This document shows, in pieces, positions 50,780-62,970 of a DNA stretch of 64,000 nucleotides. This stretch comes from a virus, in the IMG/VR virus record IMGVR_UViG_3300042452_000781, positions 1 to 64,000 of that record; one strand, given 5' to 3'. The translations under genes and the position numbers were made by a program. How positions within the stretch are numbered: the first letter of the stretch is position 1; each line of letters opens with the position of its first letter. A model generated the notes under the pieces. That model searched no databases and was not told the origin of the DNA. It saw nothing but the letters and a program-made list of their open reading frames with translations.

Positions 50780-51106
50780 TTTGGGTGGCGGAGAACTGTT
50801 TAGGTATTATGAACCAATTTCTGCATAATAGTGAAATGAGTGGACAGTTTTTCCTTTGACCCTTTTGGTGAAATTTTTTGGCGGGAAAATTTTTAATGGA
50901 TGAGGGGTGTCTTAAAACATATGGGACCCATTGACTTTTTATTTAAAACGCACTTGGGGGAATGGGTGGATGGGCGGTTCTTATCGCTAGGCCCAGGGGC
51001 CAGGCCCAGGGGCCAGGCCCCAATGGACGGCTAGGCTACTGTCCATAGTACACTTAGACTATAGTACAACTGTCCTATAAGACCTGCTTATCACCCAATA
51101 AACATA
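50780..51106. other. Gene-free gap with GC-rich tandem repeat
   Basis: No ORF with coding character is visible. It holds the upstream region of the LRV operon and, at 50989-51021, a 13-bp GC-rich repeat. A CATAATAC element 40 bases before the LRV start is a weak -10 candidate. Confidence 0.6.
50989..51021. repeat. 13-bp GC-rich tandem repeat, 2.5 copies
   Basis: AGGCCCAGGGGCC repeated at 50989-51001 and 51002-51014, then AGGCCCC. The unit can fold (GGGGCCAGGCCCC). Its GC content stands out sharply from the AT-rich surroundings. Confidence 0.9.
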
Positions 51107-51112
51107 AGAAAA

Positions 51113-51132
51113 GGCCCCCCAGATTGGAGGCC
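51113..51132 (-). terminator. Helicase gene terminator
   Basis: Minus strand GGCCTCC, AATCT, GGGGGGCC then TTTTCTT, 28 bases after the stop codon. Confidence 0.85.
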
Positions 51133-51159
51133 ATTAACTATAAGAACTGTCTTCAATAC

Positions 51160-52650
51160 TTATAGAGATTTAGGCGGAACATTCACCATGGTTAGGTGTT
51201 GTTTAGCGCGGGTAACTAGCACGTAGCATAGATTATCCTCCTGCCCAAGTTCCCACGGTTGCTTAGCCCATTTGCTAGGAGAATATGTGTTCATTCCTAG
51301 AGCAAACACTCTATTCCATTCTCTACCCTTTGCCTTATGAATTGTAGATAGCGTTAGAACTTGTTGTTTGCCGGTTTCGGTATCACCAAACAGCTCCCGA
51401 ATCTTACCAATTAATATATCCAAAGAATCCGAATCCTCGCACTGATATATAAAAACCTTAAGAGTTTCCGCCTGATCTTCTACAACCTGGCACCTAGAAT
51501 CGTTGCCCTTTTCTTTATGCTTGGCGATCTCTTTAGTCGCCCATTCTTCTAACCGAATCTCTAATTCTCCAACATTCTTTACAGTCTTCCAGCGCATGGC
51601 TAGTTTAATCAATCCCTCACCGATTGAACGGCCTTCTACTCTACAGGCAACCGAGTTACGGATCAATTTGTATGCTAACTCCACCAAAGGTTTAGTATTA
51701 CGACAGATGATAACATCCTGGGGTTTGGATATCTTAATAAGATCACCAATCTCACAAGCATCAACTATACCATCAGGTGCAGTTTCGTGAGCCTCAATAT
51801 GATTGACCCAACGATTGGCCACCTTAACTATATTCTTAGGGCACCGATAAGTGACCGTAAGAGGCAGAGTTTCTGCCTTGAATTCTGCCCGAATGTTATT
51901 CAGTGATTCGCTATCCGCCCCAGTAAATCCATAAATCGCCTGGCAAGGATCGCCTACAGCGATTAACCTACCATTAGGCTTTAACATCATTTTAACTAGA
52001 GCACGTCTGGAGGCATTAGTATCTTGCGCCTCATCTAACAAAATATAATCATACTGCCAAATCTTCATTCTATTAAGAATAGGAAGATATATCATATCAC
52101 TAAAGTCTACAATTTGTGTCAGTGAATTGCTCACCTTAAGAAGATATTGTGCAGCATCTATTCCTTGTTCTTCACTTATATTGTTGGGGAGCGTTTCTGC
52201 TATATTATAATGATTTAACATCTCTAGCCAATTATCTAGATTATTCTCCAATACTGCTCCTATTCCACACTCTTTAGCCATTGCGGCTGCGGATATAACA
52301 AACGACTGTAGAGTTTCATATTCACCAGTGAATTCTCTACGGGCAAGTTCCCGTAGTTTGTTGCCGTCAACCTTAACGCGACTTACGGCCCTACGAATAG
52401 CACCAAAACCGAAACTATGAAGTGTTCCTACCTTAATAGGAAGATTAAATGGGGCAATTTTAGATTCTATCTCAGTTGCGATTGACTTGTTAAATGCACA
52501 GAATGCCCCGTTGCCTTGAGCAACTTTAGACATTTCAATCAAGGTTGTTGTTTTGCCGGCACCAGCTACCGCTTCCAGAACGAGATTGGCGCGGGAAGAT
52601 GTAACAAATTGAACAGCGGCGGTTTGCTGGGAGGAGAGTGAGCGAGCCAT
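51160..52650 (-). CDS. UvrD/Dda-like superfamily 1 DNA helicase
   Basis: 496 residues. Motifs in order: Q-motif SLSSQQTAAVQF; I LEAVAGAGKTTTL; Ia near KVGTLHSFGFGA; II YDYILLDEAQDT; III LIAVGDPCQAIYGFTGAD; IV LTVTYRCPKNIV; V LTLSTIHKAKGREWNRVFAL; VI LCYVLVTRAKQHLTM. Such 3'-5' or 5'-3' SF1 helicases act in phage replication and recombination. It is longer than T4 Dda (439 aa) and nearer to bacterial UvrD-like stand-alone helicases. It has two candidate promoters in a leader that carries an inverted copy of the dispersed repeat, and its own terminator. Confidence 0.92.
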   Translation of the reverse strand: MARSLSSQQTAAVQFVTSSRANLVLEAVAGAGKTTTLIEMSKVAQGNGAFCAFNKSIATEIESKIAPFNLPIKVGTLHSFGFGAIRRAVSRVKVDGNKLRELARREFTGEYETLQSFVISAAAMAKECGIGAVLENNLDNWLEMLNHYNIAETLPNNISEEQGIDAAQYLLKVSNSLTQIVDFSDMIYLPILNRMKIWQYDYILLDEAQDTNASRRALVKMMLKPNGRLIAVGDPCQAIYGFTGADSESLNNIRAEFKAETLPLTVTYRCPKNIVKVANRWVNHIEAHETAPDGIVDACEIGDLIKISKPQDVIICRNTKPLVELAYKLIRNSVACRVEGRSIGEGLIKLAMRWKTVKNVGELEIRLEEWATKEIAKHKEKGNDSRCQVVEDQAETLKVFIYQCEDSDSLDILIGKIRELFGDTETGKQQVLTLSTIHKAKGREWNRVFALGMNTYSPSKWAKQPWELGQEDNLCYVLVTRAKQHLTMVNVPPKSL

Positions 52651-52664
52651 AGGGGTTTCCCTGG

Positions 52665-52692
52665 ATTACTCAGACATTCTAGCACACTGGCA
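52665..52692 (-). promoter_or_regulatory. Second helicase promoter candidate TTGCGG-N17-TAGAAT
   Basis: Minus strand, just upstream of the helicase ATG (coordinates approximate). Sigma-70-like with correct spacing. Confidence 0.45.
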
Positions 52693-52735
52693 GCGGAACC
52701 GCAACATTTTCTTAAATTATATTAAAAGGCAGGGT

Positions 52736-52773
52736 TAGCGTGCCGTTTTGTATAAACGCGATTCGTTCGCTTC
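52736..52773 (-). repeat. Dispersed 48-nt repeat, inverted copy
   Basis: Read on the minus strand it gives AGCGAACGAATCGCGTTT and TACAAAACGGCACGC, i.e. the opposite orientation to all other copies. It lies in the helicase leader downstream of the promoter at 52792. Confidence 0.8.
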
Positions 52774-52791
52774 TATTCTGTTGTCTAATCT

Positions 52792-52821
52792 ATTCTAGCA
52801 ACTGCCGGTGGAATATGTCAA
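52792..52821 (-). promoter_or_regulatory. Helicase promoter TTGACA-N18-TAGAAT
   Basis: Minus strand TTGACA, 18-base spacer, TAGAAT. It would give a leader of about 140 nt before the helicase ATG. Confidence 0.65.
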
Positions 52822-52868
52822 GCCTTCTAACCATTAGGATTGCTTATCACCCAATAAACATAATAAAA

Positions 52869-52887
52869 GGCCCCCAATAAGGAGGCC
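52869..52887 (-). terminator. Terminator of the 78-aa gene
   Basis: Minus strand GGCCTCC, TTATT, GGGGGCC then TTTTATTAT. Confidence 0.8.
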
Positions 52888-52899
52888 CATTAACTATAC

Positions 52900-53136
52900 T
52901 CACATATTCTGAATATCAATATCAAGAGCTAAAGTAGTGTTAGGCTGCTTAAGTCTAATAATATCCCCCATAACTTCGCGCCGGCAAACTACACCAGTCC
53001 AACCCATAATTGACTTCGAGAGTCTAACAATTTGTATATCAGTTAGACAATCTGTTCTGATAATCTCCTGCCTGCTATAGCAGTCGTTAACACTGTTATC
53101 AATAAGGCCGACTTTTTCAACTATAATCTTAATCAT
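52900..53136 (-). CDS. Hypothetical protein (78 aa)
   Basis: MIKIIVEKVGLIDNSVNDCY leads a mixed alpha/beta protein ending PNTTLALDIDIQNM. No motif recognised. Single gene with its own terminator; upstream sequence TTGTAG-N17-GATATG is only a weak promoter candidate. The GGCCGG before the ATG (ACCCCGGCCATG) is shared with the gene at 53791. Confidence 0.6.
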   Translation of the reverse strand: MIKIIVEKVGLIDNSVNDCYSRQEIIRTDCLTDIQIVRLSKSIMGWTGVVCRREVMGDIIRLKQPNTTLALDIDIQNM

Positions 53137-53290
53137 GGCCGGGGTGTTGCTTTGGGACCTTCATATCCTACATCATCGGATGCCCTACAACCGACCAACC
53201 ATTGATGATCTTATCTTATGTGTCCGATAAGCAACGCTAATGTTCCAAACTGCTCCAACCATGCTAGGATAGTTTCAAGAACAAAATAAG

Positions 53291-53340
53291 AGCGAACGAC
53301 TCGCGTTTATAGAAAATGCCACGCTAATCCTGCTCTTAAC
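53291..53340 (+). repeat. Dispersed 48-nt repeat copy
   Basis: AGCGAACGACTCGCGTTT, then ATAGAAAATGCCACGC and TAATCCTGCTCTTA. Contains the hairpin GCGA-ACGAC-TCGC. Located between a terminator and the next leader. Confidence 0.9.
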
Positions 53341-53365
53341 TAATAATATAAAGATATAATAAAAG

Positions 53366-53383
53366 GCCCCCCAATAAGGGGGC
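53366..53383 (-). terminator. Terminator of the 133-aa gene
   Basis: Minus strand GCCCCC, TTATT, GGGGGGC then TTTTATTATA. Confidence 0.82.
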
Positions 53384-53389
53384 AATTAA

Positions 53390-53791
53390 CTATGCAAGAT
53401 CGCTCACAACTTCTGTACCATCCAGATAATGTGGAACACCGGCAATATAATCAATCGGCTCAAAGTTTCCGACTACATCCCACGTTTCGGTGGTGAGAAA
53501 ATTGTTTAGGGCAAACTCTGCAAACTTCATTGCGCCATCATTAGTCTTGAACTGCCCCAGATAATAATTGCATTCAGTAGTTGGGCCATCTGAAGTCATC
53601 TCAACCTTTACAAATAAGATTCCTAATTCTCTACCAGAACCTACCGTAAAGTTGATATAATACTGGAAGTCGTCAAATGCTGTTCGTATCGTATTGCTGT
53701 AAATGCCCCCTACAATCTGTTCTTGATTGTTTAGATAATTCCATACCAAACTTTGGTCTAGACCGATAGCCATAAACTTGTTGTTAATCAT
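53390..53791 (-). CDS. Hypothetical protein (133 aa)
   Basis: MINNKFMAIGLDQSLVWNYL; a soluble alpha/beta protein with TVGSGRELGILFVKVEMTSD and a helical segment AMKFAEFALNNFL. No family recognised. It is the first right-hand gene with a complete type A promoter cassette (53821-53875) and its own terminator, so it is probably expressed early and alone. Confidence 0.65.
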   Translation of the reverse strand: MINNKFMAIGLDQSLVWNYLNNQEQIVGGIYSNTIRTAFDDFQYYINFTVGSGRELGILFVKVEMTSDGPTTECNYYLGQFKTNDGAMKFAEFALNNFLTTETWDVVGNFEPIDYIAGVPHYLDGTEVVSDLA

Positions 53792-53820
53792 GGCCGGGGG
53801 TGTTGCTTTGGGACTCTTTA

Positions 53821-53875
53821 AGAATAAACCGGTTTGGCTAGTCTGTCAAGCCTTGACCGATAAGCGTTTCTTATC
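53821..53875 (-). promoter_or_regulatory. Type A promoter cassette for the gene at 53390
   Basis: TTGACA (53849-53844), 17-base spacer, TATTCT (53826-53821). Nine bases upstream is the inverted repeat GATAAG-N5-CTTATC at 53859-53875. Confidence 0.8.
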
Positions 53876-53895
53876 GTTGAATAAACATAAGAAAA

Positions 53896-53914
53896 GGCCC
53901 CCGATTGGAGGACC
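53896..53914 (-). terminator. Terminator of the AbrB-like gene
   Basis: Minus strand GGTCCTCC, AATC, GGGGGCC then TTTTCTTATG; one mismatch in the stem. Confidence 0.7.
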
Positions 53915-53929
53915 TTAACTATACCGAAA

Positions 53930-54544
53930 TCATCCAGGGAATTGTGTAGACAAGAAAGGAACTTCCGTCCAGATTCCTATAACCTTTGTATCATCCTGAA
54001 AGGGTTTAACTATAGACCAAACTTTATTGCGACTGAATAGATTACAGCCACAAAAATGCATAAGAATTCTGTTTAACCTTTCCTTAGTAGATTTGGGACC
54101 TCCACTTACACGCAGAATTACAACTTTACGCTTGAAATCTACTGCTGCGAACAGCTTTTTCTGGTGGTAAATGTTTAGAGCATCTTCACTACATTTGTGA
54201 TTGAAGTTTCTACCCGTTAGCACTACAGCATCGGTACGGTAGTTATAGTAATTCTGATGCCGGATTGCCTCAATCAGACTGCGAATGGCTGGAGATTTAG
54301 AAGGATAATTATTGGCATCATTAAATATATCAATCATTGCTTGATATTGTTTAGCCACTAAAATGGCCTCATAATAAGCAGTAAAGGCTACCTCGCCTGT
54401 TTTTTTGACTCTAGTATATCCTGCTGCCCTAATAAGTTCTGCACGGGAAGCATAATCGCTTCCTTTCTTGTTGTGCTCAAGTAGAGCTAATCCCGTAAGT
54501 CTTTCTTGTGTTGTGTAGTCAATAACAAGCTGTTGGCTGGTCAT
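53930..54544 (-). CDS. Protein (204 aa) with an AbrB-like N-terminus
   Basis: I choose the ATG at 54544 (MTSQQLVIDYTTQERLTGLA). The ORF extends 37 codons further, but that part lies in the shared intergenic leader. Residues 12-65 (GLALLEHNKKGSDYASRAEL, IRAAGYTRVKKTGEVAFTAY, YEAI) resemble the cyanobacterial AbrB-like (CalA) regulator domain: GKALL...K.EL...CGY....G.....FY.A. The rest, with a Cys-containing LMHFCGCNLFSRNKVWSIVK, is unrecognised. A regulator borrowed from the host is possible. Confidence 0.6.
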   Translation of the reverse strand: MTSQQLVIDYTTQERLTGLALLEHNKKGSDYASRAELIRAAGYTRVKKTGEVAFTAYYEAILVAKQYQAMIDIFNDANNYPSKSPAIRSLIEAIRHQNYYNYRTDAVVLTGRNFNHKCSEDALNIYHQKKLFAAVDFKRKVVILRVSGGPKSTKERLNRILMHFCGCNLFSRNKVWSIVKPFQDDTKVIGIWTEVPFLSTQFPG

Positions 54545-54584
54545 TTGTTTACTGGCAACCTGCCAGTGATTGGTTGACTTGCTT

Positions 54585-54690
54585 AGTATAGGGGCAGTTC
54601 TGGCTGATACTGGCTGCTGGTGTGCCAGTTGTAGAAGTGTCTGAGAGGCACCCACAAGCGTCTACAATGGCCTTAGAATACTCTTAACAA
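54585..54690 (-). repeat. Type B leader copy
   Basis: Minus strand contains ACACTTCTACAACTGGCACA, then CAGCCAGAACTGCCCC and TATACT (54590-54585) followed by a GCAAGTCAACC stretch. Conserved with 57363, 57955 and 58520. Confidence 0.8.
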
Positions 54691-54698
54691 CCTAGGAC

Positions 54699-54744
54699 AG
54701 CGAACGACTCGCGTTTATAGAAAATGCCACGCTAATCCTGCTTG
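54699..54744 (+). repeat. Dispersed 48-nt repeat copy
   Basis: AGCGAACGACTCGCGTTT, ATAGAAAATGCCACGC, TAATCCTGCT; hairpin GCGA-ACGAC-TCGC. Confidence 0.9.
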
Positions 54745-54772
54745 TTTATAAAAATATAAGAATATAAGAAAA

Positions 54773-54788
54773 GGCTCCCGAAAGAGCC
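54773..54788 (-). terminator. Terminator of the 89-aa gene
   Basis: Minus strand GGCTC, TTTCGG, GAGCC then TTTTCTT. Confidence 0.82.
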
Positions 54789-54796
54789 TCTATAAG

Positions 54797-55066
54797 TTAT
54801 GCTAATGCTCCAAGATTGCCTAACTGTATGGCTATCTTATGGGCGGCAATTCGTCGGTCGTTTAACATAAAAGTTGTCCGACCTTTGGAGATCCTACAAC
54901 TAATTTTAATATCAGTAAATCGCCCCTCTCCGGCATAACCTTGGCAGTGTAAGTCTGCCTCGCCTATAGCCCTTCCAGGCAAACCCATATTAGAAAGGGC
55001 TAACGTTTCAACATCCTTTCGCCGTTGGAAGTTCTGATCAAAGCTGGCGAGAGTGTAGGAAGCCAT
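54797..55066 (-). CDS. Hypothetical protein (89 aa)
   Basis: MASYTLASFDQNFQRRKDVE; a basic alpha/beta protein with GRFTDIKISCRISKGRTTFM and a C-terminal helix (RRIAAHKIAIQLGNLGALA). No family recognised. Single-gene unit between a type B leader and a terminator. Confidence 0.65.
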   Translation of the reverse strand: MASYTLASFDQNFQRRKDVETLALSNMGLPGRAIGEADLHCQGYAGEGRFTDIKISCRISKGRTTFMLNDRRIAAHKIAIQLGNLGALA

Positions 55067-55204
55067 TAGACTTGAGCGGTTGACTTGTTTATCCTAGAGG
55101 CAGTTCTGGCCGTTACTAGCTGCTGGTGTGCCGGTTGTAGAAGTGTCTGGAAGGGGCCTAGAAGAGCCTGCAAGGTGCTTAGAATACTCTTATCACCATA
55201 AGAC

Positions 55205-55249
55205 AGCGAACGACTCGCGTTTATAGAAAATGCCACGCTAATCCTGCTT
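55205..55249 (+). repeat. Dispersed 48-nt repeat copy
   Basis: Same sequence as the copy at 54699, followed by the terminator of the upstream gene. Confidence 0.9.
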
Positions 55250-55270
55250 GTTTATAAAAATATACAAAAA

Positions 55271-55294
55271 AAGAAGAGAACCGAATCTCTTCTT
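55271..55294 (-). terminator. Terminator of the 103-aa gene
   Basis: Minus strand AAGAAGAGA, TTCGGT, TCTCTTCTT then TTTTTG. Confidence 0.85.
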
Positions 55295-55305
55295 ATATCT
55301 TTATA

Positions 55306-55617
55306 TCAGTGCTTAGAACTCCAGGCTATAATCTTATTGGCTGCTACTTCAATAGAATCTGTATTACATTTACGAAACTTTTCTGTTTCAGACCTATTGA
55401 ATTGTTCAATCTTACCTGCTCCGATATGAAACATAGCATATCGGGAATTATGATAAATCCCGTTAATCCACTGTTCCATTGGATCTAACGAAACCTTGAC
55501 GATTAGACTGGCATTTTCTTCTCCACCTAGAGTGGATCTTTCCACATAATAATAAGGAAAGATTCCACTCAATAGTTCAATCAATTTGGTCTCGTCTTCG
55601 GTGGATGGGATGAACAT
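55306..55617 (-). CDS. Hypothetical protein (103 aa)
   Basis: MFIPSTEDETKLIELLSGIF; alpha/beta with a strand-rich centre (ENASLIVKVSLDPMEQWING) and a C-terminal helix (SIEVAANKIIAWSS). No family recognised. Served by a type A promoter cassette. Confidence 0.65.
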   Translation of the reverse strand: MFIPSTEDETKLIELLSGIFPYYYVERSTLGGEENASLIVKVSLDPMEQWINGIYHNSRYAMFHIGAGKIEQFNRSETEKFRKCNTDSIEVAANKIIAWSSKH

Positions 55618-55641
55618 TTGTATGGTTCTGGTGACTTTCTA

Positions 55642-55697
55642 AGAATAACAGGCTTGACCGTGGTTGTCAAGCCCCTGAACGATAAGCGTTTCTTATG
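55642..55697 (-). promoter_or_regulatory. Type A promoter cassette for the gene at 55306
   Basis: TTGACA (55670-55665), N17, TATTCT (55647-55642). Inverted repeat GATAAG-N5-CTTATG at 55681-55697; the stop codon TAA of the upstream gene is inside its CATAAG arm. Confidence 0.8.
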
Positions 55698-55881
55698 CCA
55701 AGCAGAAGTCAATAGTAGTTTTTACTCCATTGTTTACTTCAATCAACTTTAATGGTCCATCTTTTTTATCTAAGAAAGACCTAGCCTTTTCATAGGTCTT
55801 AAACTTACCTAAACAAGTGTCAAGAGTTGGGCCGAATTGATTGAAAGATGACCCTGGTCTTACTACTTCATAGGTTGACAT
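55693..55881 (-). CDS. Hypothetical protein (62 aa)
   Basis: The ATG at 55881 (MSTYEVVRPGSSFNQFGPTL) has GAGG upstream and is preferred to the TTG two codons earlier. Contains CLGKFKTYEKARSFLDKKDG, a short alpha/beta unit resembling small domains that read KTYxEArxFL; no function known. Confidence 0.6.
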   Translation of the reverse strand: MSTYEVVRPGSSFNQFGPTLDTCLGKFKTYEKARSFLDKKDGPLKLIEVNNGVKTTIDFCLA

Positions 55882-55911
55882 AATCAATCCTCAGTGGTGG
55901 TTGACTTTTTA

Positions 55912-55966
55912 AGAATAAACCATCTGCAAGGGTATGTCAAGCCTTGAATGATAAGCATTGCTGATG
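55912..55966 (-). promoter_or_regulatory. Type A promoter cassette for the gene at 55693
   Basis: TTGACA (55940-55935), N17, TATTCT (55917-55912). Degenerate inverted repeat GATAAG-N5-CTGATG at 55950-55966. Confidence 0.78.
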
Positions 55967-55990
55967 GCCCGAAGGCTTGACATACATTAA

Positions 55991-56010
55991 GAGGTAGAAT
56001 AATCTACCTC
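55991..56010 (-). terminator. Hairpin at the 3' end of the gene at 56021
   Basis: GAGGTAGA, ATAA, TCTACCTC: perfect 8-bp stem, weak T-run (TTAATGTA), so a moderate terminator. Confidence 0.6.
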
Positions 56011-56020
56011 TTATTAGTTT

Positions 56021-56497
56021 TTATTGAAATTTACCCCTTGCAACCTGTAGTTCAAGAATAAACTTATCAAGTTCTTCTTTTTTGTAGAAGTATATATTAC
56101 AACTGCGGCCAGCATCATTCCAAACCTCAACGCTAACAATCGTTTGAACCCCTTCTGTAACCGGGTTGCCATTAGTTCCACCATATTCTCGCTTAATATA
56201 GTAAACTTCATAAGTATCTAAACCAGAGAGCGGAAGAATTGGCGTGTTATTGTAGATTTCTTCCCGTTCTTTGCGTCTCTGTTCTTTATAATCTTCTACT
56301 TGTTTGGCCACTTCTTCTACATTTTCGGTTATACCAACCTTTTTAATTGCACCATTAAGATCATGTTTGGGAAAATTAAATGCTGCAGCAGAGTGAACAC
56401 TAGTATCTGTATCTTGGGCCAGAAGCCTTAGGATACTTGTTGGGGTGTTTCCATTCTGGAGATCGATAATGTCCTGAATCTGTTCAGTGGTGGCCAT
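56021..56497 (-). CDS. Protein (158 aa) with one LRV-like unit
   Basis: MATTEQIQDIIDLQNGNTPT leads into SILRLLAQDTDTSVHSAAAF, which matches the repeat unit NTPPETLTILAQDEDxxVR of the LRV protein at 50375. A charged helix (EEVAKQVEDYKEQRRKEREE) and a beta-rich C-terminal domain (YEVYYIKREYGGTNGNPVTE, FYKKEELDKFILELQVARG) follow. Function unknown. Confidence 0.68.
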   Translation of the reverse strand: MATTEQIQDIIDLQNGNTPTSILRLLAQDTDTSVHSAAAFNFPKHDLNGAIKKVGITENVEEVAKQVEDYKEQRRKEREEIYNNTPILPLSGLDTYEVYYIKREYGGTNGNPVTEGVQTIVSVEVWNDAGRSCNIYFYKKEELDKFILELQVARGKFQ

Positions 56498-56524
56498 TTG
56501 ATCTTGTTGCTTTGGGACTTTTTA

Positions 56525-56579
56525 AGAATAAACCTTTTTAGTCAGCCTGTCAAGCCTTGAATGATAAGCACTGCTGATG
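56525..56579 (-). promoter_or_regulatory. Type A promoter cassette for the gene at 56021
   Basis: TTGACA (56553-56548), N17, TATTCT (56530-56525). Degenerate inverted repeat GATAAG-N5-CTGATG at 56563-56579. Confidence 0.78.
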
Positions 56580-56634
56580 GTCCGAAGGCTTGACATACTG
56601 ACTTCTCTGCTGCTATACTTTAAGAAAGAAAATA

Positions 56635-56682
56635 AGCGAACGACTCGCGTTTATAGAAAATGCCACGCTAATCCTGCTCTTA
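56635..56682 (+). repeat. Dispersed 48-nt repeat copy
   Basis: AGCGAACGACTCGCGTTT, ATAGAAAATGCCACGC, TAATCCTGCTCTTA. The only copy next to a type A cassette instead of a type B leader. Confidence 0.9.
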
Positions 56683-56709
56683 GATAAAAATATAAGAATA
56701 TAAGAAAAA

Positions 56710-56726
56710 GCCTCCAATAAGGAGGC
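56710..56726 (-). terminator. Terminator of the 97-aa gene
   Basis: Minus strand GCCTCC, TTATT, GGAGGC then TTTTTC. Confidence 0.85.
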
Positions 56727-56738
56727 ATAAGAATATGT

Positions 56739-57032
56739 TTATCGATCAATAATAAATCCTATTTTGTGTACCCCATCAGGAATTTCTCCAAGTATAACTT
56801 CATATTTGTAAATACCGTTATTTTCATTACTTACCTCGTGAAATGGAATCTCAACTTCTAATAATTCGTCGGGATCAATACAATCAATTCTAATATCATC
56901 TCCAAAATACTCGGCGGTTTCCTCCGGTAAGGAAACCTCCATTTCTTTACAAAATTGTAACACTTTAATGTGTTTTTGGTGCTCCAGATCTAAAGGTGAG
57001 CGAAAACCCTTTACACTGATTGACACTGACAT
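56739..57032 (-). CDS. Hypothetical protein (97 aa)
   Basis: MSVSISVKGFRSPLDLEHQK; acidic, with a helix KHIKVLQFCKEMEVSLPEET and a beta-rich acidic end (CIDPDELLEVEIPFHEVSNE, ILGEIPDGVHKIGFIIDR). No family recognised. Confidence 0.65.
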   Translation of the reverse strand: MSVSISVKGFRSPLDLEHQKHIKVLQFCKEMEVSLPEETAEYFGDDIRIDCIDPDELLEVEIPFHEVSNENNGIYKYEVILGEIPDGVHKIGFIIDR

Positions 57033-57058
57033 TGTTTTGATTGGTTGGGGACTTTTTA

Positions 57059-57113
57059 AGAATAACAGGAGTTTAGGCGGTTGTCAATGGTTGATTGATA
57101 AGAACTGCTTATC
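57059..57113 (-). promoter_or_regulatory. Type A promoter cassette for the gene at 56739
   Basis: TTGACA (57087-57082), N17, TATTCT (57064-57059). Perfect inverted repeat GATAAG-N5-CTTATC at 57097-57113. Confidence 0.8.
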
Positions 57114-57114
57114 G

Positions 57115-57336
57115 TTACCAATTCGCTGCAATTTCCTTGGCATTATCGCCAAGGAAACTATAACAAGCATCGGGAACTGGCCTACCCAAAATTTGACAAC
57201 AACGCACCAATTCATCGCCGTCTGCCTGTATCCTGACCATGCCGTAGCAATTTACATTTAACCATTTCTTGGGGTCTTCGCTGGGAGTGGCTGGAATGTA
57301 GGCCATGGCGCCATTCAAATCACGGGCAATTAACAT
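57115..57336 (-). CDS. Hypothetical protein (73 aa)
   Basis: MLIARDLNGAMAYIPATPSE; small alpha/beta protein with WLNVNCYGMVRIQADGDELV and RCCQILGRPVPDACY, four Cys in the second half. No family recognised. Ends two bases before the inverted repeat of the next cassette. Confidence 0.62.
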   Translation of the reverse strand: MLIARDLNGAMAYIPATPSEDPKKWLNVNCYGMVRIQADGDELVRCCQILGRPVPDACYSFLGDNAKEIAANW

Positions 57337-57362
57337 GGTTGCGGAGATCTGTTGACCTGTTC

Positions 57363-57476
57363 AGTATAGGGGCAGTTCTGGCTGATACCGGTTGGTGGTG
57401 TGCCAGTTGTAGAAGTGTCTGAGAGGCGTCTGGATGGGGCTGTAATGGCGTTAGAATACCTTTAACACCATAAGAC
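57363..57476 (-). repeat. Type B leader copy for the gene at 57115
   Basis: TATACT at 57368-57363 with the conserved upstream CAGAACTGCCCC and ACACTTCTACAACTGGCAC stretches. Nearly identical to the leader at 57955. Confidence 0.8.
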
Positions 57477-57523
57477 AGCGGGCGAACCGCGTTTATAGAA
57501 AATGCCACGCTAACCCTGCTCTT
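57477..57523 (+). repeat. Dispersed 48-nt repeat copy, stem variant
   Basis: Starts AGCGGGCGAACCGCGTTT: the hairpin is GCGG-GCGAA-CCGC, a compensatory change relative to GCGA/TCGC elsewhere. Confidence 0.9.
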
Positions 57524-57550
57524 AGATAAAAATATAAGAATATAAGAAAA

Positions 57551-57566
57551 GGCCCCCGAAGGAGCC
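57551..57566 (-). terminator. Terminator of the 103-aa gene at 57617
   Basis: Minus strand GGCTCC, TTCG, GGGGCC-type stem then TTTTCTT. Confidence 0.78.
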
Positions 57567-57616
57567 TTTATATTACCAATTATTACTAAACCTTATTTTA
57601 TATACACCAGACGAGA

Positions 57617-57928
57617 TCAAGATGGGCCGTGCAGGTTAGGCGTAAACCACGGGAACCACCCGTCAATAAAAAAGTTGTACGTGTGACATTTGAAATCTGG
57701 GCCTACAATAACCCAATGTCCGTCCGGATTACATCCTGGTAGCCCAATTTCAGTCCAATATATCCAGGCTCTCCTAGTTGTTCTCTTCGTGAATTCAGAT
57801 GGCTCTACACCTACCTTTACCATAACATCTTCGGTGGGTAAATCTGCAATCTGGGCCCATATGGGGCAACCAGTCTTTGGTGCGGATTCAATTGGCTCCA
57901 TTTTTTGGCCGTTAACGGTGATAGTCAT
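57617..57928 (-). CDS. Protein (103 aa) with a DUF551-like opening
   Basis: MTITVNGQKMEPIESAPKTG contains PIESAPKTG, typical of the phage and bacterial 'W-x-PIExAPKDG' family (DUF551-like), followed by the Trp-rich RRAWIYWTEIGLPGC and DGWFPWFTPN. Function of the family is unknown. Type B leader and own terminator. Confidence 0.65.
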   Translation of the reverse strand: MTITVNGQKMEPIESAPKTGCPIWAQIADLPTEDVMVKVGVEPSEFTKRTTRRAWIYWTEIGLPGCNPDGHWVIVGPDFKCHTYNFFIDGWFPWFTPNLHGPS

Positions 57929-57954
57929 GGTGGTTTGGATCGGTTGACTTGTTC

Positions 57955-58068
57955 AGTATAGGGGCAGTTCTGGCTGATACCGGTTGGTGGTGTGCCAGTT
58001 GTAGAAGTGTCCTAGAGGCGTCTGGATGGGGCTGTAATGGCGTTAGAATACTCTTAACAACCTGACAC
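57955..58068 (-). repeat. Type B leader copy for the gene at 57617
   Basis: TATACT at 57960-57955, followed by GAACAAGTCAACC and preceded by the conserved GGCACACCACCAACCGG block. Confidence 0.8.
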
Positions 58069-58115
58069 AGCGTAAGAAGCGCCTAAACACAAACGGGCAC
58101 GCTAATCCTGCTCTT
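58069..58115 (+). repeat. Dispersed 48-nt repeat copy, diverged
   Basis: AGCGTAAGAAGCGCCTAA, then ACAAACGGGCACGC and TAATCCTGCTCTT. The stem becomes GCGT-AAGAA-GCGC (one G.U wobble). Confidence 0.85.
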
Positions 58116-58142
58116 TTTAAGAATATAAATAATACCAAAAAA

Positions 58143-58157
58143 CCTCCAATAAGGAGG
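58143..58157 (-). terminator. Terminator of the 108-aa gene
   Basis: Minus strand CCTCC, TTATT, GGAGG then TTTTTTGG. Confidence 0.8.
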
Positions 58158-58164
58158 CTATTGT

Positions 58165-58491
58165 TTATACTGACTGTAAGAACTGTAAAGACTTAACTAA
58201 ATCTCTTTTTACCCATGTTGGTAGATTATTATACTGATCACTTTCAATAATATCTTCATGGATGATTAGACATCCTTTGATATAACAATTACCTTTCCGA
58301 CCTTTCATTTCATTTACATTATTTACGGTTATTGCGGCTTGCATATTCCAAAAGAAAGACGAAACATTGTCGGCTAATTTCTGGCTGTTACTACCCTTAA
58401 GGTTTAGCCTATTAGCTAGTCTCCTGCCCGTCATTGTTGAAAAATGACGTAGAAACGGGATCTGTTCATTGGTGGGGAAGGGGCAGATCAT
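58165..58491 (-). CDS. Hypothetical protein (108 aa)
   Basis: MICPFPTNEQIPFLRHFSTM, basic, with GRRLANRLNLKGSNSQKLAD and a C-terminal helix (TWVKRDLVKSLQFLQSV). No family recognised. Type B leader upstream. Confidence 0.63.
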   Translation of the reverse strand: MICPFPTNEQIPFLRHFSTMTGRRLANRLNLKGSNSQKLADNVSSFFWNMQAAITVNNVNEMKGRKGNCYIKGCLIIHEDIIESDQYNNLPTWVKRDLVKSLQFLQSV

Positions 58492-58519
58492 CGGCTTGCC
58501 TGGGGTGGTTGACTTGTTT

Positions 58520-58634
58520 AGTATAGGGGCAGTTCTGGCCGTTACTGATTGGTGGTGTGCCAGTCTTAGAAGTGTCCTAGAGGCACGTCTGAAGCGTCTG
58601 CAATGGCCTTAGAATACTCTTAACAACCTAGGAC
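58520..58634 (-). repeat. Type B leader copy for the gene at 58165
   Basis: TATACT at 58525-58520 followed by AAACAAGTCAACC. Confidence 0.8.
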
Positions 58635-58681
58635 AGCGAACGACTCGCGTTTATACAAAACGGCACGCTAATTCTGCTCTT
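58635..58681 (+). repeat. Dispersed 48-nt repeat copy
   Basis: AGCGAACGACTCGCGTTT, then ATACAAAACGGCACGC and TAATTCTGCTCTT; closest to the inverted copy at 52736. Confidence 0.9.
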
Positions 58682-58710
58682 AACTAATAATATAAAGATA
58701 TAAAAAAAGA

Positions 58711-58722
58711 CTCCCGAAGGAG
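58711..58722 (-). terminator. Terminator of the 139-aa gene at 58737
   Basis: Minus strand CTCC, TTCG, GGAG with flanking pairs, then TCTTTTTTT. Confidence 0.75.
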
Positions 58723-58736
58723 CCTTATTAAATCAA

Positions 58737-59156
58737 TCAACAAGAAGGTTGAAAGTATATCTTATCGGTTGGAGTCATAATTGTAGTAATAACTCCATCA
58801 TCACTTACTGTAGTCTTTTCCTCTAACCAATAAAATGCAGTTTCAAGTCTGCCACCCTTTCGTATAAGTTCTCTTTCCTCTTCAGTTAGATTATCCCACT
58901 TGTTTAATACTTTACGACCATCCAGGCCGATTGTAAGTAATAGGGTGTGCTTATCAAGCATTGATTGCCATTTAGCATAAGCATAAGACGTTAATGCCTC
59001 TTGCTTATATTTTGGGAGCCTCTTAAAGGCTGGCTCCGCGTATAGATTATTAAGGCCATCTTTGGCATGGTTTAGATTTTGTCTGTAACTTACTGCCGCA
59101 GATATGGCTCCATTGATTCTGGCCTGATAGTTTGAATAAACATCGGTGGTGGCCAT
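58737..59156 (-). CDS. Hypothetical protein (139 aa)
   Basis: MATTDVYSNYQARINGAISA; mostly helical (QEALTSYAYAKWQSMLDKHT, NLTEEERELIRKGGRLETAF) with a short beta end. No family recognised. Type A cassette upstream, own terminator. Confidence 0.66.
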   Translation of the reverse strand: MATTDVYSNYQARINGAISAAVSYRQNLNHAKDGLNNLYAEPAFKRLPKYKQEALTSYAYAKWQSMLDKHTLLLTIGLDGRKVLNKWDNLTEEERELIRKGGRLETAFYWLEEKTTVSDDGVITTIMTPTDKIYFQPSC

Positions 59157-59185
59157 GGTGGTTTGTGGGGCTGGGGGACTTTTTA

Positions 59186-59241
59186 AGAATATCAGGAGCT
59201 TGAGAGGTTGTCAAGCCCCTGAACGATAAGCAGTTCTTATC
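59186..59241 (-). promoter_or_regulatory. Type A promoter cassette for the gene at 58737
   Basis: TTGACA (59214-59209), N17, TATTCT-position hexamer (59191-59186). Perfect inverted repeat GATAAG-N5-CTTATC at 59225-59241, overlapping the TGA of the upstream gene. Confidence 0.8.
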
Positions 59242-59686
59242 AGTATACAAAGGGTAGAATCTTATCACGTAGGGCATAAATTTCATCGTCTAATTCTTTG
59301 ATTTTATTAATTGTGGCTTCAACTTCATCTAGTGTGTATTCTGTATATTCTTTCGGTTCTTTAAGACTGCTAAGATCATCAAAATTAATCCTTGCAATAT
59401 CGAAATGTTTAGTTGCTCTTTCGGTTCTGTGTTCTGATACTGAATACCTATAAGAAACTTCTGCAGATATACTACAAGAATAAAAGTGAAATATAATAGA
59501 ACACCCGTAACCAGCTCTGAGAATGTCCATCTCATCACTGATCTTCTTAATAAAAGTTCTATAAGGAGTGGTCTTGATTACCTTCTTACCGATATAGGGT
59601 TCTAGAATTGTGTTTATCTTATCGTTAATTTCCCTGGCCAGTCTGTTGACTAAATTGGTGGCTTCAACTTTGGCAGCGAGTGTCAT
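59240..59686 (-). CDS. Hypothetical protein (148 aa)
   Basis: The ATG at 59686 (MTLAAKVEATNLVNRLAREI) is chosen because the longer ORF runs through the upstream promoter cassette. Helical N-terminus, then a beta core (GCSIIFHFYSCSISAEVSYR) and a C-terminal coiled coil (YTLDEVEATINKIKELDDEI). No family recognised. Confidence 0.65.
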   Translation of the reverse strand: MTLAAKVEATNLVNRLAREINDKINTILEPYIGKKVIKTTPYRTFIKKISDEMDILRAGYGCSIIFHFYSCSISAEVSYRYSVSEHRTERATKHFDIARINFDDLSSLKEPKEYTEYTLDEVEATINKIKELDDEIYALRDKILPFVY

Positions 59687-59717
59687 GGTGGTGTGGTTGT
59701 GGGCAGTTGACTTTTTA

Positions 59718-59773
59718 AGAATATCAGGAGCTTGAGAGATTGTCAAGCCCCTGAACGATAAGCATTTCTTATC
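59718..59773 (-). promoter_or_regulatory. Type A promoter cassette for the gene at 59240
   Basis: TTGACA (59746-59741), N17, TATTCT (59723-59718). Perfect inverted repeat GATAAG-N5-CTTATC at 59757-59773, overlapping the upstream TGA. Confidence 0.8.
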
Positions 59774-60080
59774 ATTCAAAAATGATGTTTTCGTCTAAAG
59801 AATTAAACCCGGTTAATTCCTTAAAAGAATTCTTAAGATACTTAATGAGTGTAGTGATATTTTTACCCTTAAACTGTGCCAGATCAATTATATCATCGCC
59901 ATACTCAATCTCATCGGGAATCTCTAGAATTTTGATCTTACCTGTTACAATATGAATAGGATAGAAATACCATCTGCTACCCATAAACTCGCTTCGGTTT
60001 TGAGCATCTGAAACTGTAGGGAATTCCCCTTCAGTTACCTTTTCACCGTCAAGAGCGAGACAGACAAGTTTGTAAGACAT
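59772..60080 (-). CDS. Hypothetical protein (102 aa)
   Basis: MSYKLVCLALDGEKVTEGEF; opens with a beta hairpin resembling small 'YKLVCLxxxG' domains, then GSRWYFYPIHIVTGKIKILE and a helix. No family recognised. Confidence 0.65.
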   Translation of the reverse strand: MSYKLVCLALDGEKVTEGEFPTVSDAQNRSEFMGSRWYFYPIHIVTGKIKILEIPDEIEYGDDIIDLAQFKGKNITTLIKYLKNSFKELTGFNSLDENIIFE

Positions 60081-60101
60081 TGTGGTGGAGTGGTTGACTT
60101 C

Positions 60102-60521
60102 TTAAGAATACCCGGTTTTTAAGGGCTTGTCAATGGTTGAATGATAAGCAGTTCTTATCCAATATGAAATATCAATTTCCTTTAGTGTTTCAAGAATATT
60201 ACCGGGAACTAATACTTCTACACTATCAGCATAAAATACCTTAAAGGCGCGATCTATTAGGGCAATTTCTAACGGCCCCATAAGATAGGGAGCACAACCA
60301 ATCATAACACCTTCACACTTATCTCTATGGCCACCGTCATAAAGAAACCTATAATCACTTGCAATGTAGGCTATATTTTTAGCCCTTTGTATTATGGGAA
60401 GCTCGCTAAGTGTAAGAAGTTTTCTAACCTCTTGGAGCATATCATCAATGTGAATATCAACAATTCCTGTGGCTATTTGTTCTGCGGTTGCATCGTGTTG
60501 AGTTAGATTGATAATGGCCAT
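60102..60521 (-). CDS. Hypothetical protein (139 aa) with NLTQHDAT opening
   Basis: MAIINLTQHDATAEQIATGI matches a phage and bacterial family that starts with NLTxHxATxEQ, function unknown to me. The rest includes CEGVMIGCAPYLMGPLEIAL. Its last 20 codons overlap the type A promoter of the next gene. It follows the zinc-ribbon gene by about 25 bases without its own promoter, so the pair is probably an operon. Confidence 0.7.
   Translation of the reverse strand: MAIINLTQHDATAEQIATGIVDIHIDDMLQEVRKLLTLSELPIIQRAKNIAYIASDYRFLYDGGHRDKCEGVMIGCAPYLMGPLEIALIDRAFKVFYADSVEVLVPGNILETLKEIDISYWIRTAYHSTIDKPLKTGYS
60105..60159 (-). promoter_or_regulatory. Type A promoter cassette for the gene at 59772, inside a coding end
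   Basis: TTGACA (60133-60128), N17, TATTCT (60110-60105). Perfect inverted repeat GATAAG-N5-CTTATC at 60143-60159, all within the 3' end of the gene at 60102. Confidence 0.8.
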
Positions 60522-60545
60522 TTGATTGGAGGTAAGTTTATAAAG

Positions 60546-60776
60546 TTACGGTAGTTCATCCTTAGTTTTGATAAGTTGATTCAGAATATAATTAAATGCT
60601 CGTTTCATATCTTCGGGTGATACCTCTACTTCCACTAACTTTTCTTCGGTATCAAAACAATAAGAACATGTATTACAAGAATACCGACGCACGGTTACAT
60701 CACCAGATTCTAAAAGCTTATGTGTTGTTAGAAGATGGTTACGGTCGTAACCATTACAGATTGGACATTGGGCCAT
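60546..60776 (-). CDS. Small zinc-ribbon protein (76 aa)
   Basis: MAQCPICNGYDRNHLLTTHK and YSCNTCSYCFDTEEKL give a Cys-x2-Cys ... Cys-x2-Cys pair for one zinc ion, arranged like the ribbon of NrdR-type or transcription-related proteins. The C-terminal half is an acidic helix. The partner is unknown. Confidence 0.72.
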   Translation of the reverse strand: MAQCPICNGYDRNHLLTTHKLLESGDVTVRRYSCNTCSYCFDTEEKLVEVEVSPEDMKRAFNYILNQLIKTKDELP

Positions 60777-60913
60777 TTGAGGCGGGGCAGGGGGACTTTT
60801 AATAATATACCATTTTCAGGTTCGCTGTTGTGGTGGTGGGTCAGTTGTAGAAGTGTCTGGAAGGCACCTAGAAGAGCCTGTAGGGGGCCTAGAATACCTT
60901 AGACAACCTAGGA

Positions 60914-60960
60914 CAGCGTAAGAAGCGCCTAAACATAAACCGGCACGCTAATCCTGGGCT
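60914..60960 (+). repeat. Dispersed 48-nt repeat copy, diverged
   Basis: AGCGTAAGAAGCGCCTAA, then ATAAACCGGCACGC and TAATCCTGGGCTCTT; partner of the copy at 58069. Confidence 0.85.
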
Positions 60961-60987
60961 CTTATAAAAATATAACGAATACAAAAT

Positions 60988-61013
60988 AAGACTCCCCCGA
61001 ATGAGAGAGTCTT
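60988..61013 (-). terminator. Terminator downstream of the LRV remnant
   Basis: Minus strand AAGACTC ... GAGTCTT with a 12-base interior, then TATTTTG. Confidence 0.7.
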
Positions 61014-61044
61014 ATCTTAATGGATTAGGGCATGTTGAGGGCCT

Positions 61045-61103
61045 CTTATTGATTGGGGGAAGCAAGAATTGTTAGAGTTTCTGATGGAGTGTTGTGAGTG
61101 GAT
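61045..61103 (-). pseudogene. LRV repeat remnant
   Basis: Minus-strand translation gives STHNTPSETLTILASPNQ then a stop. NTPSETLTILA matches the repeat unit of the protein at 50375. No start codon in frame and only one unit remains, between an intact promoter and terminator. Confidence 0.75.
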
Positions 61104-61135
61104 TAGAGCATGATGGGAACCTCTCTTTCTTCTTA

Positions 61136-61190
61136 AGAATAACAGGGGCTTGAGAGTTTGTCAAGCCCTTAATGATAAGTGTTTCTTATT
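61136..61190 (-). promoter_or_regulatory. Type A promoter cassette facing the LRV remnant
   Basis: TTGACA (61164-61159), N17, TATTCT (61141-61136). Inverted repeat GATAAG-N5-CTTATT at 61174-61190. Confidence 0.78.
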
Positions 61191-61494
61191 GGAGAAACAT
61201 TCCACTTTCAAAGGGAACATCTTTACCATTATCATTTACGAACCATTCAAAGTTCTTTTGAAAGATCCCCCAACCACGAGATTGAAGTATAGCATTTAGC
61301 CGGCTCTTTGTGGTTTTTGTTTGCCAGCCGCCATCAAAGATTTGGATAAAATTACCACCAATTTTGGCAATAAGATTGCCGTGGAGTAGAACTTTAATAA
61401 CTCCATCTTCGGTGATTACGGTAGTGTTACCACCGCCGAAGTTCCTGCCATTGGAGATGGCTTGATTCATCTTCTGTTCAATGATGCGGGTCAT
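61186..61494 (-). CDS. Phage protein (102 aa), 'GGWQTKTTKSRLNA' family
   Basis: The central IFDGGWQTKTTKSRLNAIL and the flanking beta strands (VIKVLLHGNLIAKIGGNFIQ) match a common small phage protein family found in many phages of diverse bacteria, function unknown. The C-terminus WGIFQKNFEWFVND is also typical. Type A cassette upstream. Confidence 0.75.
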   Translation of the reverse strand: MTRIIEQKMNQAISNGRNFGGGNTTVITEDGVIKVLLHGNLIAKIGGNFIQIFDGGWQTKTTKSRLNAILQSRGWGIFQKNFEWFVNDNGKDVPFESGMFLQ

Positions 61495-61520
61495 GTGTCT
61501 GGGGGGTGGTTGACTTTTTA

Positions 61521-61575
61521 AGAATAACAGGGGCCTGAATGAATGTCAAGCCCCGAATGATAAGAACTTCTTATT
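61521..61575 (-). promoter_or_regulatory. Type A promoter cassette for the gene at 61186
   Basis: TTGACA (61549-61544), N17, TATTCT (61526-61521). Inverted repeat GATAAG-N5-CTTATT at 61559-61575. Confidence 0.8.
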
Positions 61576-61577
61576 GG

Positions 61578-61727
61578 TCAATTATCTATTTCCAAAATGG
61601 GCCAAAGTAAACCGCCAATAATTCCAAAAGGAATGGCGAATAGGATAACACCTACGGGGCCAAGATAAAAACCAGAAAGACCACTAATAGTCATAACAAA
61701 CAGCAGATTGAAGTAATTGATTTTCAT
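61578..61727 (-). CDS. Small membrane protein (49 aa)
   Basis: The ATG at 61727 (MKINYFNLLFVMTISGLSGF) is preferred; the longer ORF runs through the promoter. Nearly all hydrophobic: two segments, FNLLFVMTISGLSGFYLG and VGVILFAIPFGIIGGLLW. No family recognised. A holin-like or inner-membrane role is conceivable but unsupported. Confidence 0.6.
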   Translation of the reverse strand: MKINYFNLLFVMTISGLSGFYLGPVGVILFAIPFGIIGGLLWPILEIDN

Positions 61728-61758
61728 GTTGATGGTTGCTTTGGTTGAGGACTTTTTA

Positions 61759-61814
61759 AGAATACCAGGTTTTTGTCGGGCTGTCAAGGGGTTGGATGAT
61801 AAGGAGTTCTTATG
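61759..61814 (-). promoter_or_regulatory. Type A promoter cassette for the gene at 61578
   Basis: TTGACA (61787-61782), N17, TATTCT-position hexamer (61764-61759). Inverted repeat GATAAG-N5-CTTATG at 61798-61814. The upstream gene's stop TGA is within TTGACA. Confidence 0.8.
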
Positions 61815-62794: not shown

Positions 62795-62864
62795 ACTCAA
62801 TAAGACCTTCCATTACTCAATAAGACCTTCCATTACTCAATAAGACCTTCCATTACTCAATAAG
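62795..62864. repeat. 20-bp direct repeats, 3.5 copies
   Basis: ACTCAATAAGACCTTCCATT at 62795-62814, 62815-62834 and 62835-62854, plus ACTCAATAAG to 62864. Further isolated CAATAAGACC copies follow near 62925. Confidence 0.95.
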
Positions 62865-62894
62865 CTTAATATGCTCAATATACTTAATAAGACC

Positions 62895-62970
62895 ATTCCT
62901 TTATGCTTTCATACGCATATCCATTCAATAAGACCTTAAAACTTATTCCTTTATGCTTTTAGACACATAT
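62895..62970. repeat. 26-bp direct repeat pair, 50 bp apart
   Basis: 62895-62920 and 62945-62970 share ATTCCTTTATGCTTT and end CATAT, with about four mismatches. Confidence 0.85.

Follow-up and report, generated by a model that had tools for sequence, protein, structure and literature searches.

Promoter cassettes in the window

The DNA analysed here, referred to as the window, comprises positions 1 to 64,000 of a 64.6-kb IMG/VR virus record (IMGVR_UViG_3300042452_000781), and its right-hand part carries a series of sigma-70-type promoters, each preceded at a nearly constant distance by a GATAAG-N5-CTTATC inverted repeat. Because a psbA-like gene in the window matches Synechococcus myoviruses and the window helicase shares 63% identity with the helicase of Synechococcus phage B23 (Kyanoviridae), the phage was taken as a T4-like cyanophage. 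The right-hand part consists mostly of small open reading frames (ORFs) on the minus strand. Pfam searches with ten of these ORFs yielded no match for nine and Kyanoviridae Gp96 for one, and no known RNA family of Rfam was matched between 52 and 64 kb of the window.

The 64-kb window contains exactly eleven copies of the promoter sequence TTGACA-N17-TATTCT with zero mismatches. They are confined to the minus strand, and their number confirms that given in a first-pass annotation of this DNA. The inverted repeat was present at each of the eleven coordinates listed there, with 9 or 10 bp between CTTATC and the -35 hexamer, as the annotation had described. Its wording that all eleven cassettes carry the same 17-bp repeat was slightly overstated, since the copies are not identical: the 17-mer is perfect in five cassettes (53859, 57097, 59225, 59757 and 60143), has one mismatch in four (55681, 61174, 61559 and 61798) and two mismatches in two (55950 and 56563). 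All eleven have an identical promoter-proximal arm, CTTATC, and the variation is confined to the distal arm; the stop codon of the upstream gene lies in or beside the latter in several cassettes, as had been noted before.

All eleven cassettes are oriented on the minus strand. Cassette 1 (53821-53875) is composed of the repeat at 53859-53875 (GATAAGAAACGCTTATC, minus strand) and the promoter at 53849-53821, cassette 2 (55642-55697) of the repeat at 55681-55697 (CATAAGAAACGCTTATC), with the stop codon of the upstream ORF in the distal arm, and the promoter at 55670-55642, cassette 3 (55912-55966) of the repeat at 55950-55966 (CATCAGCAATGCTTATC) and the promoter at 55940-55912, and cassette 4 (56525-56579) of the repeat at 56563-56579 (CATCAGCAGTGCTTATC) and the promoter at 56553-56525. 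The others are cassette 5 (57059-57113; repeat 57097-57113, promoter 57087-57059), cassette 6 (59186-59241; 59225-59241 and 59214-59186), cassette 7 (59718-59773; 59757-59773 and 59746-59718), cassette 8 (60105-60159; 60143-60159 and 60133-60105), which is read through by the upstream ORF 60102-60521, cassette 9 (61136-61190; 61174-61190 and 61164-61136), cassette 10 (61521-61575; 61559-61575 and 61549-61521) and cassette 11 (61759-61814; 61798-61814 and 61787-61759).

Three promoters had been missed by the first-pass annotation. A twelfth minus-strand cassette (52792-52848) combines a repeat at 52832-52848 (GATAAGCAATCCTAATG) with TTGACA-N18-TAGAAT from 52821 and precedes the UvrD-like helicase gene (51160-52650). 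On the plus strand, promoter-like sequences were found at 55977-56005 (TTGACA-N17-TAATCT) and at 56590-56619 (TTGACA-N18-TATACT), each divergent from a cassette and 11 bp from its repeat; the repeats of cassettes 3 (palindrome 55951) and 4 (palindrome 56564) are thus common to two promoters. The widened pattern ATHAG-N5-CTDAT-N10..13-TTGAC occurs 14 times in the window, compared with a mean of 0.01 (maximum 1) in 100 dinucleotide shuffles of the window. The palindrome ATHAG-N5-CTDAT by itself occurs 15 times in the 64 kb, always within 51,077-61,813, and 12 of these 15 are flanked by TTGAC, on one side or both, at a distance of 10 or 11 bp; those at 51077, 53227 and 54792 have no TTGAC at this distance.

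Properties of the repeat and a second hairpin

The annotation had suggested a regulator site near -55 and, as an alternative, a role of the repeat in termination. Intrinsic terminators have a stable stem rich in G+C and, behind it, a T-run. The repeat folds with only 0 to -3.4 kcal/mol, and the linker and the -35 hexamer follow it instead of a T-run. Moreover, stem pair 3, the only informative pair because the other four were fixed by the pattern used for collection, is A-T or T-A in 61 of 93 non-redundant phage cassettes and an uncompensated mismatch (A-A, A-G, C-T or T-T) in the remaining 32, so that the sequence of the repeat is conserved and not an RNA structure. A function as terminator was rejected on these grounds. 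Such a pattern of conservation would be expected of a protein-binding site that tolerates changes at the third base, and the repeat behaves accordingly. By the geometry of the hexamers its centre lies at -53/-54, and the spacing is fixed across unrelated phages, which supports the regulator site. The strict dyad and the fixed sequence argue against an UP element.

A second hairpin covers the -35 hexamer and the spacer in five of the eleven cassettes, with the -35 hexamer in the 5′ arm and the 3′ arm in the spacer. The example at 59192-59222 (minus strand; CAGGGGCTTGA...TCAAGCTCCTG) has 12 bp and -18.3 kcal/mol and is followed by TATTCTT; further minus-strand hairpins of this design, all overlapping the -35 hexamer and spacer, are located at 59724-59754, 55650-55674, 61146-61168 and 61530-61554. 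Compared with shuffled sequences in which TTGAC was kept, the hairpin was significantly stronger in 5 of the 11 window cassettes, and it reached p ≤ 0.05 in 30% of the 93 phage cassettes. A terminator-like role may belong to this second hairpin rather than to the repeat.

In their layout, these five cassettes resemble the promoter-early stem-loop (PeSL) cassettes of T4-type phages (Arbiol 2010 and Comeau 2014, as cited in PMC4503421). Both are repeated intergenic sigma-70 promoters in a variable region of ORFan genes, here with eleven exact copies among small genes; a hairpin over the -35 hexamer and spacer is present in about a third of the phage cassettes, and some RB49 promoters have the same design. 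Further traits of PeSL cassettes are termination of transcription by the stem-loop and a part in modular shuffling through recombination. Unlike the PeSL cassettes, those of the window additionally contain the regulator palindrome, whereas scans of T4 and RB49 revealed no palindrome at the cassette distance.

Occurrence in other phages

The pattern ATAAG.A...CTTATC-N9..11-TTGACA was found in 76 IMG/VR stretches, most of which have a -10-like box at the correct distance, while the controls yielded 9 stretches (half-site permuted) and 3 stretches (pattern reversed). When 84,980 bacterial and archaeal genomes were scanned with a comparable pattern (N9-10), 18 scattered matches were obtained, about the number due to chance. 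In eight phage stretches, the gap between TTGAC and the palindrome was 10 or 11 bp in 63 of the 74 cases within 65 bp. One contig of 248 kb contains 22 promoter-linked sites, compared with 14 in the window.

The contigs examined are related to the T4-like phages S-PM2 and S-CAM4 and to the T7-like phage S-CBP4. The T7-like contig L057 has the site in the stretch that separates the terminase gene from the phage RNA polymerase gene, which, by gene order, is the place of an early promoter; in contig L063, a redoxin gene and psbA follow the site. Among isolates, a scan with the strict pattern ATAAG...CTTAT missed most cassettes, and the relaxed pattern revealed sites in S-H38 (six), S-CREM1 (four, one of them directly before the DNA helicase gene), DSL-LC03 (one) and B23 (one); the remaining isolates scanned, T4 and RB49 among them, were without sites. 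A group of loci (L023, L024, L026-L030, L032, L033 and L036) has one repeated promoter in common, with CTTATC and no dyad, and was set aside.

Several variants of the arrangement were observed. The palindrome and promoter at L063:2327 and L080:7416 are accompanied by a terminator-like hairpin (in L063 AAAGGGG-GTTGACAA-CCCCTTTATTTTT) upstream of a small hli-like ORF and a redoxin gene, with psbA further on in L063. In L047, L052, L053, L057 and similar contigs, one more half-site lies upstream (CTTATC-N6-ATAAG-N5-CTTATC), which may suit a LysR tetramer. At L012:13697 (minus strand) a different palindrome (TATTCAATTTTGAATA) replaces the usual repeat, perhaps as the site of another regulator.

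Counterpart at the host Rubisco operon

In 20 alpha-cyanobacterial genomes, the carboxysome/Rubisco operon (csoS1-cbbL-cbbS-csoS2) was located by means of CsoS2, and the DNA upstream of it was inspected. AT.AG-N5-CTTAT is present in all 20, at a distance of 43 bp (42 bp in one case) from TTGAC. In these host sites CTTAT is invariant and the third base of the distal arm varies between A, C, T and G, the same asymmetry as in the window. The palindrome TGATAAG-N5-CTTAT is rare in the host genomes, with 0-4 matches per genome on both strands, mostly the Rubisco-operon site, followed by petF. Six host genomes (L231, L239, L240, L241, L245 and L249; about position 1509) have the same palindrome in the interval from prmA to petF, and two (L232 and L248) have it between cbiX and a gene for DUF2811; both locations are candidates for additional targets of RbcR in alpha-cyanobacteria.

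For RbcR, the motif ATTA(G/A)-N5-(C/T)TAAT with activation from about 90 nt upstream of the transcription start is given in a 2026 review citing Bolay 2022 (PMC13249358), in which repression by RbcR (CbbR/Ycf30) bound at about -10 is likewise mentioned. The centre of the host site lies at about -87, with the start taken from assumed -35 and -10 hexamers, and this agrees with the value of the review. The phage site ATHAG-N5-CTDAT has the same arms, spacer and G/C edges as the RbcR motif but a third base that is mostly A, and in relaxed form it is a T-N11-A palindrome of the LysR type. Two 5-bp AT-N-A-G half-sites, the 5-bp spacer, the T-N11-A form and the palindrome at the host Rubisco operon are features in common with an RbcR operator, whereas the phage copies differ from it in being mostly ATAAG, in lying 10-11 bp instead of 43 bp from the -35 hexamer and in being present many times per genome.

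A single LysR protein (HTH_1 domain) was found in 14 of 16 alpha-cyanobacterial genomes, and in Prochlorococcus MED4 RbcR has been named as its LysR-type regulator (PMC6778093). NCBIfam gave no match above cut-off for the host LysR protein, hence no family name; its best PDB match is 5y2v, annotated as "Rubisco operon transcriptional regulator", a match that does not separate RbcR from NdhR. A LysR protein encoded by the phages was considered as binder and dismissed, as a search of 9 phage records returned no LysR gene.

Proposed function and alternative explanations

Taken together, these similarities make it probable that the repeats are operators of the host regulator RbcR which activate phage promoters, probably early ones, and perhaps also titrate RbcR. 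The expression of viral genes from at least a dozen promoters would then probably be tied to the carbon-fixation regulator of the host, and the small genes behind the cassettes are probably expressed early. The phage palindrome is positioned 32-33 bp nearer to the -35 hexamer than the host palindrome, and since this shift amounts to about three helical turns, the palindrome stays on the same side of the helix. RbcR bound at the phage site would adjoin the -35 hexamer and contact the C-terminal domain of the RNA polymerase alpha subunit or a sigma region, and in this way it would bring RNA polymerase to the series of phage promoters that serve small genes. As a likely side effect, the many phage operators would pull RbcR off the Rubisco operon. 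The fixed gap and this geometry favour activation via contact with RNA polymerase; repression and titration may occur as well, and these functions are mutually compatible. Going further, it is conceivable, if rather unlikely, that host RbcR serves as a licence for infection, with takeover promoters that follow the carbon-fixation state of the host while the array strips RbcR off the Rubisco operon.

Several points weigh against RbcR as the activator. Position 3 of the half-site is T in the Synechocystis motif (ATTAG) and mostly A in the phages (ATAAG), and activation by RbcR is known from about -90, whereas the phage site is centred at -53/-54, although the former position was reported for Synechocystis targets and is a property of those promoters, not of the site itself. 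The promoters of the window are close to consensus and may not require an activator. No match was found in the well-studied cyanophages S-PM2, Syn9, S-RSM4, P-SSM2, P-SSP7, S-CBP3/4 and Syn5, and the literature searched contained no report of RbcR binding at the Rubisco-operon site of alpha-cyanobacteria. Finally, the assignment to RbcR is based on sequence.

If the repeats are RbcR operators, RbcR could instead act as a brake until it is released by a metabolite, or the array could mainly be a sponge that lowers Rubisco and carboxysome expression. LysR proteins can repress by position, as RbcR does near -10, the sites form multi-copy arrays in the window and in the 248-kb contig, and host Calvin-cycle transcripts drop in infected Prochlorococcus (PMC5082946). 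However, a sponge alone requires neither linkage to promoters nor a fixed gap of 10-11 bp, and a brake directly upstream of the -35 hexamer would not alone block the polymerase, so this explanation is considered unlikely. Slightly less probable still is the binding of another factor, from a different host family or a small DNA-binding protein of the phage, in which case the match at the Rubisco operon would reflect the host regulon of that factor. The prmA-petF and cbiX-DUF2811 palindromes imply a regulon wider than Rubisco, and the cassettes are mostly followed by uncharacterised genes; on the other hand, the half-site length and the 5-bp spacer match RbcR, as does the published position at the Rubisco operon. 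A comparison by eye of the consensus columns of the 93 cassettes with published motifs showed no fit for NdhR (ATAG-N8-CTAT), CmpR (TTA-N7/8-TAA), NtcA (GTA-N8-TAC) or the Pho box (CTTA-N7-CTTA), and for the MarR regulator of phage P-SSP7 (PMC9692554) there is no defined palindromic motif for comparison.

The third explanation, that the repeat serves as a hairpin in the RNA, for termination, processing or 3′-end protection of the upstream gene, as in the T4-type promoter-stem-loop cassettes, would account for the intergenic position of the cassettes and for the repeats that follow or overlap stop codons, and the second hairpin points in the same direction. Yet the terminator-like part is this other hairpin, the repeat itself has the weak fold, the missing T-run and the uncompensated mismatches described above, and it is kept where no gene ends in it and also at the host Rubisco promoter. 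This explanation is thus regarded as highly improbable.

Other elements of the window

A further intergenic element, termed type B, was observed between 52,700 and 60,960 (e.g. at 54700, 55205, 56636, 57475, 58068, 58633 and 60910). It contains a conserved block AGCGAACGACTCGCG...CCACGCTAATCCTGCTC beside terminator-like hairpins and TATTCT or TATACT boxes; by eye, the hairpin arms appear to covary between copies, and Rfam gave no match. At 56590-56720 (plus strand) the divergent TTGACA-N18-TATACT promoter would transcribe one type B block in antisense direction, the predicted RNA having a length of about 120 nt and ending at a terminator-like hairpin, and the same promoter occurs in a relative (L011, plus strand, 9645). 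Tandem CTCAATAAGACCTTCCATTA repeats are located at 62796-62900.

Relation to known host cues and biological meaning

Control of cyanophage genes by host factors has precedents: host PhoB controls genes of S-PM2d (PMC10976474), and NtcA boxes are present in 16 cyanomyoviruses (PMC3037559). As in those promoters, sites for a host factor in front of phage genes would link transcription to the nutrient state. The cassettes described here differ in that the proposed regulator is one of carbon fixation, in that the palindrome is placed at a fixed distance from strong sigma-70 promoters as part of a repeated cassette, and in that T7-like contigs also have it at the promoter that precedes the RNA polymerase gene. 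For the cassette as such, the PeSLs are the precedent. The literature searched contained no paper linking RbcR to phages.

Cyanophages need light and depress the CO2 fixation of their hosts. Wiring of the host Rubisco regulator into phage promoters would provide a concrete and testable link between phage transcription and the photosynthetic state of the host, also in the growable isolates S-H38 and S-CREM1. Carbon status would thereby be added to the cues that are known or have been proposed for cyanophages, namely phosphorus (PhoB) and nitrogen (NtcA). Through its simple sequence signature, the cassette moreover allows such promoters to be searched for in metagenomes. Should the licence function hold true, one cis-element would both sense the photosynthetic status of the host and lower its carbon fixation, in T4-like as well as T7-like phages.

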